Below, piece by piece: positions 6,220 through 18,571 of a stretch of DNA of 20,349 nt (position 1 is the stretch's first letter; every line of letters starts with the position of its first letter). Both the position numbers and the translations under genes were made by a program. The notes under the pieces are model-generated. The model saw only the letters and a program-made list of their open reading frames with translations, did not search any database and was not told the DNA's origin. The DNA comes from a virus: positions 1 through 20,349 of the IMG/VR virus record IMGVR_UViG_3300009003_000032. One strand, written 5' to 3'.

Positions 6220-7668
6220 ATGGCCAAGCAAACAATAGGTATCGGCGCAAGTGCTAATGACGGATCAGGTGATCCGATTAGAATTGCTTTCGATAAAGTC
6301 AACGATAACTTTAATGAGTTGTATGGTAACGGTGGTACCACCGGCAATACGCTTATAGATTTATTCGATAGTTCGGGTAATTTCGATTTAACAGGTAAAC
6401 CACATAAAATATCATTCTATTATGATACACTAGTAAGCTTACAAGCACTGAACCCTGGTACTTATCACGGAGCTATAGGCCATGCTCACGATACCGGTTC
6501 ATTGTACTATGCTCACGGTTCTTGGAGAAGATTACTTGCAGATACTTCCGGTGGTACAATACTAAATTACAGTGACCCTCTTGCTCCTCATGTTTGGGCA
6601 AACAACGTTACTAACTCAGAAACATCTGATTATGTATTAAAAACAAATGCAGATGGTACATATACTTGGGTTGAAATGGCTGGTGGCGGTGGCAGTTCAT
6701 ACGCTGATGCAAATGTTGATACTCACTTAAATACAAGTGGAGCTTCGGCTGACGAAGTATTATCTTGGACTGGTTCAGATTATGCTTGGGTTGCCCAGTC
6801 AAGTGGTGGCGGTTCTTCTGCTAATACATTCGGAACAATAACAGTAGCAGGTCAATCTAATATAGTTGCAGATAGCGCAACGGACGGATTAACAATTGTT
6901 GCTGGTTCTAATATGACCATTACAACAGATGCATCTACTGATACTATTACTTTTAACGCATCAGGCAGTGGAGGCGGTGGTGGTACTGACCTCAACAGCT
7001 TAGTCGGTGGAACAATCGATGTAGCTGCAGATAGTATTGGATTTATTGATGCTGATGATTCTAATGCTTCAAAGAAAGAATTAATTGCTGATTTAGTTGC
7101 AGCAATTGCTGGTACTAATGTTACAGCTTCAAACGGAGTATTAAGTGTTGCAGCACCAGGAAATACATATACAAATGCTGATGTTGACGGTCACTTAAAT
7201 GTTTCAGGCGCAGCTTCTAATCAGTTCTTACAATGGAGTGGTTCAGATTATCAATGGGCTGCAGCAAGTGGTGGTGGTGGTGGTGCTGCTACGAGAGTAA
7301 ATGAAGCCGAAACAACAGGCTCGATAGCTGATGGCGCTAGTGGTAATATTGCATTCTCAACACTCGGTAAATCATTTGGATTACTTAAAGTTACTGTTGA
7401 TAAAGAATGTTGGGTAAGGATTTATTCTGATACATCATCAAGAACAGCAGACGCATCCCGAACACAAGGTACTGACCCGGCAGATGGTTCAGGTGTTATT
7501 GCAGAATTTATCTCAACGACTTCAGGCACACAAGTATTTAAAGTTACACCATCAATTATTGGTTGGCTTGATAATTCAGAAACAACAGTTCCTGTAGCAG
7601 TTCAAAATAACTCGGGAACAACAGGGACAGTTCAAGTTACGATCGACGCACTTAAATTAGAGTCTTAA
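6220..7668 (+). CDS. Glycine-rich tail fibre / virion structural protein with GSDYxW repeats
   Basis: This 482-residue protein opens with the anchor motif GASANDGSGDPIRIAFDKVN and NFNELY (about 8-35), a recurring N terminus in marine T4-like fibre and baseplate proteins. Two related 31-residue units follow at 161-191 and 317-347 (ADANVDTHLN...SWTGSDYAWV and TNADVDGHLN...QWSGSDYQWA). Each is followed by a poly-Gly/Ser linker. The C-terminal part, about 360-482, is a compact beta-rich domain (LLKVTVDKECWVRIYSDT ... VQVTIDALKLES) with no S74 chaperone. The low-complexity Gly/Ser/Thr composition, repeats and modular layout suggest a trimeric fibre or baseplate decoration; receptor binding by the C-terminal domain is inferred. 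The gene lies between gp7-like and gp8-like wedge genes and is followed after three bases by the subtilase gene. Confidence 0.7.
   Translation: MAKQTIGIGASANDGSGDPIRIAFDKVNDNFNELYGNGGTTGNTLIDLFDSSGNFDLTGKPHKISFYYDTLVSLQALNPGTYHGAIGHAHDTGSLYYAHGSWRRLLADTSGGTILNYSDPLAPHVWANNVTNSETSDYVLKTNADGTYTWVEMAGGGGSSYADANVDTHLNTSGASADEVLSWTGSDYAWVAQSSGGGSSANTFGTITVAGQSNIVADSATDGLTIVAGSNMTITTDASTDTITFNASGSGGGGGTDLNSLVGGTIDVAADSIGFIDADDSNASKKELIADLVAAIAGTNVTASNGVLSVAAPGNTYTNADVDGHLNVSGAASNQFLQWSGSDYQWAAASGGGGGAATRVNEAETTGSIADGASGNIAFSTLGKSFGLLKVTVDKECWVRIYSDTSSRTADASRTQGTDPADGSGVIAEFISTTSGTQVFKVTPSIIGWLDNSETTVPVAVQNNSGTTGTVQVTIDALKLES
6700..6792 (+). repeat. Fibre repeat unit, copy 1 (protein-level)
   Basis: Residues 161-191 of the glycine-rich fibre encode YADANVDTHLN ... 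LSWTGSDYAWV, followed by a Ser/Gly linker. It pairs with the second copy at 7168-7260; the similarity is clear in protein and diverged in DNA. Confidence 0.65.
7168..7260 (+). repeat. Fibre repeat unit, copy 2 (protein-level)
   Basis: Residues 317-347 encode YTNADVDGHLN ... LQWSGSDYQWA, followed by a poly-Gly run encoded by repeated ggt codons. Same unit as 6700-6792, 156 residues further on. Confidence 0.65.
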
Positions 7669-7671
7669 TAT

Positions 7672-9957
7672 ATGGATAAGCAATTTTATAACGTATTACT
7701 AGAACCAGGTTCTGACGAAGCAGCATTTCTTGCTAATGAAGCAGCAGGTATGATTTGTCATGATAATCTTGACCTCTTTGATATGTGTTTAGTTATGAAA
7801 TTAACAGAAGCAGAAGCAGCAACGCTAGAAGCAAGTCCAAAAGTAATAGAATGTCACAAAGAATTAGTAGCTGAGCCTGATTCATATCCAACAAGTATTC
7901 CAAGGTACGAAACACCAACTACAGAATATAGAGCAAGATACTATCCATCCGGCGGTGACGACGGTGCTGATTATACTGGTTCAAATATGTTTTTTACTAG
8001 TGAGTTTAAAGGCGCTACAGGTTTTAACCCGCCTATAGGATATTTTGGTGATACAAACTTTGAGGATACAGTTAAATCAAACTTTATGGGTGACTATGTT
8101 GATATAGTTGCAGTTGAAGCAGGATCCACAGCAGATGCTCTTGCCAATGGCCACGAAAATCATGTTGACTTTCAAGAGTTTGATAGTACTACTAGTAGGT
8201 TTGTTCCTATGGATTGGTCCGATATAAACTCATCTTTAACTAGTACTTTAAACAATCAAATTACTAACGCCAATGGTGCTGGAGATGGTTGGTTTACATA
8301 TCATGCAGCTGGTGTACTTAGTGCAGCTGGTGGTAAATATTGCGGTTGGGGTAAAAACTCTTCGTTAAGATTAATATATCTTGGTGGTGAATCAACAGCT
8401 TCTGTTTATTATGCAGTACTTCAATGGCACATTGCCAAACCTATTAATCCTATTACTGGAACTCGTAATGCAACAGTTGTTACTGGAGCATGGGGCTTTG
8501 GCGGATTAGAGCATACGAAGTTTTTTGATATTGAAGATTGTTCATATATAGAAGCAAAAGATCCAGTTACTAATGCCACTACTAGGTATGACAGAGGCGG
8601 TTACTTAGAAGGTGAAGAATTTAATATTACAATGACTGCCACAGGTTCTGCAGAATATATAGTTACAGGCAGCGATCGATTATATAACGGATCTACAGCA
8701 TCAACACCTCTAGGCAATAGAGGCATTATGGGAAGACCGGGCGATAGAATTACAATAACTAACAATGCAGTCGGTGCGCATCCTCTCTATGTTAAAACTT
8801 CACCGAGTAGTGGATCTACTAGTAATCTATATTCTGGAGTAACAGGACAAGGCACATCAGAAGTATCTTTTATCTTACCTGACGCAACTATAGGATTGCA
8901 TTATATTTGTGGATTTCATTCAGCAATGACTGGAACTATAACAAGTATTAAGGATACTACAACTTGGGGTCAAGATCTTAGACCATTCTTTAGATCTGGT
9001 ATTATTCCAAGAGTAATTCTAGACCCTGCAGATAATACTGATAAGTGGATGATTTCAGTACCAAACTCGTCACGCTGGTCGTCTTGGGATACAATTATGG
9101 GCCAGTTTGCTGCTTACGAAGGAATATATCATTTTAAAAGCGCTGGTAATAATGCTCATGTTGCAGTTGATCCAGGTGATAACAGATGGAACACAGTTGT
9201 TAGGCAAGACGGCAATAGTCCTTATGTTATTAATTCTGTTGTTAGCCAAACAAATAATTTTAGTTCAACTGCAAATCCTGGGGCATTTGATAATTATCCG
9301 CTTAGAACATATATTAATGGTGGAGATAATCAATTCACAGTTGCTGCTTGTCAACAAGACGACACAAACAGATTATTAGATGATTATAGTAACAGAGGCC
9401 CAATGATTGACATAGCTTCTTATGGAGCGCAAACGTGGACATCATATCCAATTCAAGCTTATAGTGATGGCAGATGGGGTTATTTTAGTGGAACAAGTTG
9501 TGCTGCTCCAGTAGCTGCTGGTTGTGCTGCAGTATTTTTAGATTGGTATGTTACTCAGAGAGGTAAATTTCCAACTATTCCACAACTCAAAGAATTAATA
9601 CAAAAACACGCTAAAGAAAACTTAATAGAAGATATAGTGACTAATATTGACTTTGAAAATCAAATAGGCACGTTGGACCCTAATATCGGCCAAGCTAGAT
9701 TATCGCCTAAAAATATATCTTCAAGTAAATTATACTCTTCAACAGAAGTTAATAGAATTAAAGATGGTGATAGCAGTAATGGTGGAGCAGACTTAACCGT
9801 TCTAGCTGGGACACAACCATTAAGAATTCATATTCCATGGGGAATCAGAATGGGAAGCGGTAAATATATCGCTGGTGGTTCCGAACAAACACAACATAAA
9901 AGGAGACCGACCTCTGGATCTGTTTGGCCTCGAAGAAAGGTTTCTTTTTCTTCTTGA
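7672..9957 (+). CDS. Subtilisin-family (S8) serine protease-like virion protein with inserted cupredoxin domain
   Basis: The 761-residue protein has a subtilase layout. Residues 1-70 resemble an I9-type propeptide (YNVLLEPG at 6-13; LTEAEAATLEASPKVIEC at 44-61). The Asp-box position reads DIVAVEAG (144-151), with E149 where catalytic Asp is expected. The His box is YHAAGVLSAAGG with H211, the oxyanion Asn is N493 in SAGN, and the Ser box GTSCAAPVAAG contains S609. Between the His and oxyanion/Ser parts lies a cupredoxin-like domain at 313-428. No signal peptide is seen, as expected for a virion protein. It starts three bases after the fibre gene with a weak Shine-Dalgarno (TTAGAG) inside that gene, suggesting coupled translation. 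Cleavage of surface proteins, or maturation of neighbouring fibres, is inferred; the Glu substitution leaves activity uncertain. The S8 assignment itself is strong. Confidence 0.85.
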   Translation: MDKQFYNVLLEPGSDEAAFLANEAAGMICHDNLDLFDMCLVMKLTEAEAATLEASPKVIECHKELVAEPDSYPTSIPRYETPTTEYRARYYPSGGDDGADYTGSNMFFTSEFKGATGFNPPIGYFGDTNFEDTVKSNFMGDYVDIVAVEAGSTADALANGHENHVDFQEFDSTTSRFVPMDWSDINSSLTSTLNNQITNANGAGDGWFTYHAAGVLSAAGGKYCGWGKNSSLRLIYLGGESTASVYYAVLQWHIAKPINPITGTRNATVVTGAWGFGGLEHTKFFDIEDCSYIEAKDPVTNATTRYDRGGYLEGEEFNITMTATGSAEYIVTGSDRLYNGSTASTPLGNRGIMGRPGDRITITNNAVGAHPLYVKTSPSSGSTSNLYSGVTGQGTSEVSFILPDATIGLHYICGFHSAMTGTITSIKDTTTWGQDLRPFFRSGIIPRVILDPADNTDKWMISVPNSSRWSSWDTIMGQFAAYEGIYHFKSAGNNAHVAVDPGDNRWNTVVRQDGNSPYVINSVVSQTNNFSSTANPGAFDNYPLRTYINGGDNQFTVAACQQDDTNRLLDDYSNRGPMIDIASYGAQTWTSYPIQAYSDGRWGYFSGTSCAAPVAAGCAAVFLDWYVTQRGKFPTIPQLKELIQKHAKENLIEDIVTNIDFENQIGTLDPNIGQARLSPKNISSSKLYSSTEVNRIKDGDSSNGGADLTVLAGTQPLRIHIPWGIRMGSGKYIAGGSEQTQHKRRPTSGSVWPRRKVSFSS
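8608..8955 (+). other. Cupredoxin-like (type 1 copper) domain inserted in the subtilase
   Basis: Residues 313-428 form a beta-rich module: FNITMTATGSAEYIVTG, RPGDRITITNN, GAHPLYVKTSP and LHYICGFHSAMTGTI. All four type 1 copper ligands can be placed: H370 (in AHPLY), C413, H416 and M419. The C-x2-H-x2-M spacing equals that of amicyanin (C92, H95, M98), and the first His is 43 residues upstream (39 in amicyanin). Similar 'CxxHxxM' modules occur in marine phage structural proteins. Whether copper is bound is not known from sequence. Confidence 0.65.
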
Positions 9958-17159: not shown

Positions 17160-17345
17160 ATGAGTGATTTAAAAAGAGATTCAATATCTGGAGCAATAAT
17201 AAACAACGATGCGTCTGCGCTGAATAAATATAAAGTAGAGCGGAGTTATTATCGTAAAGTAGACAAGCTACAAGACGATATTTTAGAAATCAAGCGCAGT
17301 ATAATCTCTATATACGAAAGAATCGAAAAACTGGAAAACAAGTAA
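17160..17345 (+). CDS. Small helical/coiled-coil protein (61 aa), function unknown
   Basis: This short gene sits between the giant DUF4815-type gene and the S74 fibre. AGGA (in catagGActg) precedes its ATG, and its stop overlaps the next start as TAATG, implying coupled translation with the fibre. The second half, about residues 30-61, has a heptad-like pattern of Leu/Ile with charged residues (VDKLQDDILEIKRSIISIYE then RIEKLENK), ending in a likely coiled coil. No enzyme motif is seen. Its size, helical nature and position before a fibre make a fibre-assembly chaperone (compare T4 gp57A, 79 residues) or a small connector possible, but this is inference and I see no clear sequence match. Confidence 0.6.
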   Translation: MSDLKRDSISGAIINNDASALNKYKVERSYYRKVDKLQDDILEIKRSIISIYERIEKLENK

Positions 17346-18571
17346 TGGCAAAGGCTAATTTACAGAATATTACAACCTCTGGTACATTCCAGAACTGGTT
17401 TGATAAAACCAATGAGATTGTAAATATTATTAAGACTGATACTCTTACCGCTGGTGGTGATACTACTAACGGTAATGCTACTTTAGTTGGTAATTTTACA
17501 GCAACTAACGTTATTGCTAATACTTTATTACAAACTGATGGTATCGGGCCAAAAACTGGTGGAGCTACTATTCAAGTAAATAGTGACACTAAAATTAATG
17601 GTACTTCTCAAAACGCTTTAATAGTTTCTCATGGTACTGGTGGACAAGCACAATTTACAAACGGTAGTATTACTTGGAATGCAGGTCTTAAAGACAGCGG
17701 CGGAAATTTCATTATCGATACTGGTGCTGGTGATGATAAATTTAGTCTAGCAACCAACGGTATGCTTACTGTACCTAATATTACAGTTACTGAAGATGTT
17801 ACTGCTAGAGCCTTTTATGGTGATGGTTCAAATTTAACAGGTGTCGTATCAGCTGTTGGTATTAATGATATTACAGATGTTACAATTACTAGCCCTTCAG
17901 CTAACCAGGTTTTAAAATATAACGGAAGCGCTTGGGTTAACGGTACAGATGCTAGTGCTGATCCTGGAATACAAGACAGTTATCAAGGTGGTTCATTTAT
18001 TACAACTGGTTCAGTTTCTGGTGAAGAAAAAGCCTTCATTACAGGCAAGAGACTAATTAATGTACCATTCGGAGTTCTTAAAAGTAGTTGGAATGATGTT
18101 GCCTATGAAGTACTTACATGGGGCCCAAGTGGTATCAGTGTAAACGGTTACGGATATTTTAATGATGATGTTCAAGTCCGTGATGGTAATGTTACTGTTT
18201 ATAGCAACAACACTATCAAAGCATTCATTGATACAACAGGTAACGGATACTTTACTGGTGACGTAACAACAAACGGTTCTGCGTCAGACGAAAGATTAAA
18301 AGAAAATATAAAGCCTCTTGAAAAAGGTTTGAAAACAATAGAACAAATAAAGACGTATACGTTTAACTATAAAAACAAGCCTCAGGATACGCATCCTGGT
18401 GTTATTGCGCAGGAAATCGAAAAGCTGGTTCCTGAAGTAGTCTATGATGTTGAGATGGAAGAGGGTACGCGTAAAGCAGTGAGATACCAACAATTGGTTC
18501 CATTGCTAATAAATGCAATCAAAGAGCTAAGCGATAAGGTAAATGATTTAGAAGATCGGTTAAAATCGTAA
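17345..18571 (+). CDS. Tail fibre with C-terminal S74 intramolecular chaperone
   Basis: This 408-residue fibre-like protein begins with an attachment-type N terminus (LQNITTSGTFQNWFDKTNEI at 6-25, then VNIIKTDTLTAGGD). A Gly/Thr/Asn-rich shaft follows, with motifs common in marine phage fibres: ARAFYGDGSNLTGV and ITDVTITSPSANQVLKYNGS. The C-terminal 95 residues are a Peptidase_S74 domain starting at the SDERLKENI box (S314, D315), followed by TYTFNYKN, HPGVIAQEIEKLVPEVV and a terminal helix VNDLEDRLKS. In characterised S74 proteins this domain promotes trimerisation and then cleaves itself off just before the Ser of Ser-Asp; both residues are present here. A trimeric fibre or spike is therefore likely, with mature length near 313 residues. 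The receptor is unknown. Confidence 0.85.
   Translation: MAKANLQNITTSGTFQNWFDKTNEIVNIIKTDTLTAGGDTTNGNATLVGNFTATNVIANTLLQTDGIGPKTGGATIQVNSDTKINGTSQNALIVSHGTGGQAQFTNGSITWNAGLKDSGGNFIIDTGAGDDKFSLATNGMLTVPNITVTEDVTARAFYGDGSNLTGVVSAVGINDITDVTITSPSANQVLKYNGSAWVNGTDASADPGIQDSYQGGSFITTGSVSGEEKAFITGKRLINVPFGVLKSSWNDVAYEVLTWGPSGISVNGYGYFNDDVQVRDGNVTVYSNNTIKAFIDTTGNGYFTGDVTTNGSASDERLKENIKPLEKGLKTIEQIKTYTFNYKNKPQDTHPGVIAQEIEKLVPEVVYDVEMEEGTRKAVRYQQLVPLLINAIKELSDKVNDLEDRLKS
18284..18568 (+). other. S74 peptidase/chaperone domain of the fibre
   Basis: Residues 314-408 contain the Ser-Asp dyad at the start of SDERLKENI, the GVIAQEIEKLVPEVV core and a C-terminal helix for trimer contact. Predicted self-cleavage lies between A313 and S314. 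Confidence 0.85.

Follow-up and report, generated by a model that had tools for sequence, protein, structure and literature searches.

A cupredoxin domain with an amicyanin-type ligand set inside a subtilase-fold tail protease of marine phages

The window, a viral record of 20,349 bp, stems from a marine virus of bacteria and contains a T4-like baseplate neighbourhood, which comprises gp25, gp6, a wedge protein, a connector-like protein of phrog_677, a protease and another wedge protein. The gp6 protein is nearest to that of the Sinorhizobium phages phiM12 and phiN3 (38% identity). Due to this, the window virus may have an alphaproteobacterium as its host, and not a cyanobacterium. Elsewhere, the window encodes a baseplate-region protein with an M15 peptidase domain at its C-terminus (2-1249) and a fibre ending in an S74 intramolecular chaperone (17345-18571). 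The features of the protease and of the gene upstream of it are collected in Table 1.

Table 1. Positions of the protease, its predicted functional residues and domains, and the upstream gene in the window
Feature	Position	Strand	Basis
Upstream connector-like protein (phrog_677), without cupredoxin	6220..7668	+	PHROG and profile comparison
ORF of 761 aa, subtilase-fold tail/baseplate protease with embedded cupredoxin	7672..9957	+	Pfam, PHROG, AF2, Foldseek
Residues 1-64, beta-alpha-beta-beta-alpha-beta unit, like a subtilase I9 pro-domain	7672..7863	+	AF2 secondary structure; BFVD names
Glu149, position of the catalytic Asp	8116..8118	+	Homologue column; end of strand 143-149 (model)
Site 1, residues 171-175; permuted cupredoxin in S-CAM1-type relatives, none in the window	8182..8196	+	Comparison with L074, L150, L162
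His211, catalytic His	8302..8304	+	Invariant, 44/44; start of helix 210-220 (model)
Cupredoxin domain, residues 312-428, site 2 (His box to Asn box)	8605..8955	+	Profiles, AF2, Foldseek, orthologue alignment
His370, predicted copper ligand 1	8779..8781	+	137/138 copies
Cys413, predicted copper ligand 2	8908..8910	+	137/138 copies
His416, predicted copper ligand 3	8917..8919	+	137/138 copies
Met419, predicted axial ligand	8926..8928	+	137/138 copies
Asn493, oxyanion Asn	9148..9150	+	Invariant, 44/44
Ser609, nucleophile (GTSCAAP)	9496..9498	+	Invariant, 44/44; start of helix 608-630 (model)

The protease matches a single Pfam family, Peptidase_S8 (PF00082; 43.6 bits at a cut-off of 21.8), and the tail fiber profile phrog_15006 (E 2.3e-53), and a phmmer search of the whole protein against the PDB gave a chance match only. 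An initial AF2 prediction from 12 close sequences had low confidence beyond the cupredoxin (pLDDT 44); a second one, based on 44 sequences, took its place and reached a pLDDT of 77.7 and a pTM of 0.73. For this second model, Foldseek returned two sets of matches, subtilases and cupredoxins, the former being CspB, ProteinT, EpiP, pro-subtilisin E and proteinase K. Here, the S8 fold is indicated by the PF00082 profile as well as by Foldseek. The best match in BFVD is a protein of S-CAM1 (TM 0.61), and further matches there include ones named Peptidase inhibitor I9. The Pfam I9 profile gave no match to residues 1-64, which by the secondary structure of the models resemble an I9-type pro-domain. 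At the opposite end of the protein, a C-terminal RRPxSGxxxPR motif (9901-9933) is nearly invariant among subtilases that are only ~20% identical, and is perhaps an attachment or processing signal.

The catalytic residues His211, Asn493 and Ser609 are unchanged in 44 homologues, down to ~20% identity. The catalytic acid was not named in the original prediction and corresponds to Glu149. In this column, Glu is found in 23 and Asp in 21 of the 44 homologues: the window and S-CAM1 clades carry Glu, and the S-H9-1 clade carries Asp. Since Glu149 takes the place of the Asp of standard S8 peptidases, the protein is better described as an S8-fold homologue with a variant triad. AF2 places Glu149, His211 and Ser609 in the layout of a subtilase, and the Glu-His-Ser triad, invariant together with the Asn, suggests a working enzyme. 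The residue numbers given in the original prediction (H211, H370, C413, H416, M419, N493 and S609) are all correct in ORF 7672-9957.

For the region 8608-8955 (residues 313-428), a cupredoxin domain had been proposed, and the profile match covers the same stretch. Taken alone, the domain of the window stays below every Pfam cut-off and PHROG likewise names no cupredoxin. The orthologous copies L013 and L017 lie above the cut-off of PF00127 (Copper-bind; 26.2 and 23.6 bits vs 21.2), and this family is matched at E 0.01 by nine of the 44 aligned members. Furthermore, when the solved structures were searched with a profile built from ten copies, plastocyanin 3bqv (E 0.0024) and amicyanin 1sfd (E 0.0026) were matched, and the His, Cys, His and Met align in both matches. 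AF2 assigned a pLDDT of about 70-90 to region 316-425. The Foldseek matches listed for the first model are cupredoxin-fold proteins, and the cupredoxin set of the second model contains rusticyanin, plastocyanin, AcoP and nitrite reductase. Plastocyanin, rusticyanin and AcoP are matched with prob 1.00 and a TMt of up to 0.61, and AF2 together with Foldseek reveals a Greek-key beta-sandwich. By profile and by model, residues 312-428 are homologous to cupredoxins and retain the complete ligand set of the amicyanin type, as had been predicted. Its embedding inside the subtilase-fold domain of a phage tail protein was likewise borne out, since Foldseek finds both folds and places this region on cupredoxins and the remainder on subtilases. 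One profile scan of bacterial and archaeal genomes gave no cellular relative of the module, and therefore no donor was identified.

The window domain displays the ligand order His, Cys, His, Met with a short C-terminal loop, so that the full type 1 ligand set of the original prediction is present. A motif of the form H-x(35-64)-C-x2-H-x2-M arises in 25 of 20,000 shuffles of the window protein, and the conservation of the four ligands in the aligned copies is far stronger than such a chance occurrence. All four ligands are kept in 11/11 domain-bearing orthologues (of 19 distinct orthologues) and in 137 of the 138 distinct complete domain copies from all loci fetched, some of which had been found by queries including the first His or the Cys strand. 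When clustered at 60% identity, 46 of 47 clusters keep them, the mean pairwise identity being 35%, and all four ligand columns rank within the top seven of the domain by conservation. A profile in which the ligand columns were masked gave the same count of 137/138, which argues against an artefact of the profile. Furthermore, the C-H and H-M spacings are constant in 136/137 copies, and the His-Cys distance ranges between 36 and 65.

Homologues that keep the fold and lose the ligands are thus limited to one exception in 138, the second tandem copy in L239 (L239:2492-5506, residues 651-750), from which all four ligands have been lost together. This all-or-none loss is what a metal site predicts, and the strict conservation would also be expected with a metal other than copper. 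The degenerate copy adjoins another cupredoxin copy in the same protein. The special retention of the ligands inside a protease, which had been pointed out originally, stands with respect to the retention, but it is not special to the protease, because the module retains its ligands in all of its contexts.

The ligand set is that of electron-transfer proteins, and this would fit a redox or electron transfer function, for example in oxidant defence or in the control of the protease, the latter having been suggested before. This function is extremely unlikely, since the domain contains no second Cys, the domain is lost without change in the protease, of which near-identical versions without it exist, and we know of no redox partner.

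The domain is cleanly absent from eight of the 19 orthologues. A single in-frame block of 342 bp distinguishes L014 from L019, and its flanks are 97.6% and 98.1% identical on DNA level. The protease thus stays intact without the domain, catalytic residues included. The cupredoxin is a discrete module, which is gained or lost in frame, and in our reading it is neither required for protease folding nor part of the catalytic machinery. A need of the metal for folding of the protease, as suggested before, is not supported by near-identical proteases lacking the whole domain and by its C-terminal placement in relatives.

The comparison of 131 distinct subtilase ORFs, for which the loci were fetched partly by domain-containing queries so that the counts are biased and do not represent natural frequencies, revealed 46 with a single cupredoxin downstream of the Ser box (as in S-H9-1, ACG-2014j and their relatives), 33 with one copy between the His and Asn boxes as in the window, seven in which a permuted copy separates the catalytic acid from the His (S-CAM1 type), seven with permuted copies at both sites, five with two tandem C-terminal copies, 30 with none and three irregular ones. 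In the permuted copies, the Cys-His-Met strand (PYWYQCxxHxxM) comes first and the His half (GHPF.I) last. A self-joined (doubled) profile matches them continuously across the junction, e.g., at model positions 89-196, and no such crossing is seen for canonical copies. The second permuted site is the insertion loop of the window (TRPG...GWG). At least three arrangements of the cupredoxin are present in phage subtilases, in addition to other virion proteins.

In the subtilisin topology, both insertion loops flank the substrate cleft, one following the strand of the catalytic acid and the other the strand lining the S1 pocket. With both sites beside the cleft, and both filled in some relatives, the domain could be a gate or exosite, which governs the access to the active-site cleft or the choice of substrate, possibly in a metal-dependent manner. 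We consider this quite unlikely, since the largest group carries the module C-terminally and near-identical proteases manage without it. An unrelated insert of ~300 aa (VGGQTAVPD...EHVFHTLHMHG...) with EHxxH-like motifs is found in L016:862-4029, L018:4001-6802 and L024:407-3235 upstream of the catalytic acid, at window residue ~113; no Pfam or PHROG match to the insert itself was seen.

The upstream phrog_677 gene has its own cupredoxin in many relatives (e.g., L007:2315-3994 and L019:1142-2902). Within the window clade, wherever the gene upstream of a domain-less protease could be read, it contains such a copy, with the S-CAM1-like L182 as the exception. A Fisher test on the complementarity of upstream and protease cupredoxins, uncorrected for relatedness, gave a pooled p of 1.8e-4 (60% clustering); for the window clade and the S-H9-1 clade taken separately, p was 0.20 and 0.018, respectively. 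It is only suggestive that every tail locus retains at least one cupredoxin, either in the protease or in the upstream gene. The same module with all ligands is also present in a late-region protein of the Prochlorococcus podovirus P-SCSP2 (L076:3947-5260), for which no match in the PDB was found, and in a protein of the freshwater Actinomycetia phage DSL-LC01 (L078:3140-4510). The earlier remark that cupredoxin-like modules are common in structural proteins of marine phages is supported.

This occurrence in many virion proteins of differing function (connector, tail fibre, podovirus proteins), as well as the dispensability seen for L014 and L019, would be explained by a structural staple, an Ig-like tail decoration in which the metal only stabilises a small beta-sandwich in sea water and no recognition takes place. 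Such a staple is conceivable, although we do not favour it: the several insertions near the cleft within a single protease family and the near-absolute retention of the four ligands, instead of a partial loss, suggest a role beyond stability.

For the window protein, we propose a plug-in recognition module, which is stabilised by its metal and located next to the substrate cleft of a baseplate protease, a proposal whose chances of being right or wrong we regard as balanced. Here, the cupredoxin is plugged into the loop region after the S1-pocket strand of a subtilisin-fold protease with Glu149-His211-Ser609/Asn493, and this protease would be active. Copper would be bound at the site and taken up after lysis; the loading is placed there because assembly is cytosolic and free copper in the cytosol is minimal. 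The metal would fasten the loop of the Cys, His and Met to the His strand, thereby stabilising the pole farthest from the tethers. In the cupredoxin topology, the canonical termini are found at the end of the domain remote from the copper, and so is the permuted break, which directly precedes the Cys strand. In canonical and permuted copies alike, the metal pole would therefore face away from the protease. The stabilised pole would then serve as a recognition surface, through which the protease attaches to a partner, most probably a component of the host surface. This recognition role is deduced from modularity and position, and it is favoured by the position of the insertion, the strict ligands and the free gain and loss.

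Type 1 sites hold their metal tightly and in a buried position, and we know of no receptor for copper displayed on a tail. Both points speak against metal-mediated docking, in which the tail copper would be recognised by a metal receptor of the host in analogy to the proposed iron Trojan Horse of marine phages, and which we consider very unlikely. The iron Trojan Horse is itself hypothetical. As a precedent, HxH iron sites are present in T4 gp37 and have been proposed in marine phages (PMC11705849), and the cupredoxin site is strictly conserved.

A far wider generalisation would be that copper proteins are a common part of the virions of marine phages: a type 1 module, mobile and possibly including the first natural permuted cupredoxins, would be placed repeatedly around the active site of the baseplate protease and in neighbouring tail proteins, with its copper end acting in host recognition or entry. 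In our opinion, this generalisation is doubtful.

Cupredoxins and phage subtilases are both already known, and it is their combination that appears to be new. The module is present in cyanophage proteins already deposited in databases, mostly labelled as unknown or tail proteins. In the literature accessible without subscription, nothing relevant was found on cupredoxin, blue copper or plastocyanin-like domains in phage tails, and no natural circularly permuted cupredoxin. The cryo-EM paper on P-SCSP1u was considered as a prior description of a podovirus-tail cupredoxin and mentions none. If the proposed role is true, a class of abundant marine phages carries a defined metal site on its tails and trace-metal chemistry is tied to phage adsorption in a testable way. 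Natural circularly permuted cupredoxins, as well as natural protease pairs with and without the insert, would become available. It would also mean that tail proteins can gain a function by plugging a stable module into a loop of an enzyme, which remains unbroken.

Compared with known systems, the domain shares the fold of amicyanin and plastocyanin (PF00127; profile, Foldseek) and the same H...C-x2-H-x2-M with the short loop of amicyanin. In contrast to these, it is ~20% identical or less and embedded in a protease, and we know of no electron-transfer partner. In small blue copper proteins the His is usually followed by Asn, and in multicopper oxidases His-Pro is found; in the phage domain Pro follows the His in 136/137 copies, unlike in the usual small blue copper proteins. 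Among phage proteins, the 'putative proximal tail fiber protein' of S-CAM1 (phrog_15006; AOV57849.1) is a homologous Glu-His-Ser subtilase of the tail module, which differs from the window protein by a circularly permuted cupredoxin between the catalytic acid and the His. The 'subtilisin-like serine protease' of S-H9-1 (phrog_9158; QPB08157.1) is a tail-region subtilase with the same cupredoxin family, but it has an Asp-His-Ser triad and a canonical cupredoxin at the C-terminus. With the cellular S8 subtilases (proteinase K, CspB, EpiP, ProteinT), the window protease has in common the catalytic fold, the His, Asn and Ser boxes and a probable pro-domain, and it is distinguished from them by Glu in place of the catalytic Asp and by the embedded cupredoxin. 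Finally, the HxH sites of T4 gp37 and of marine tail fibres, compared here by their description in the literature, also represent a metal in a phage tail protein, but they hold octahedral iron by paired histidines and contain no cupredoxin (PMC11705849).
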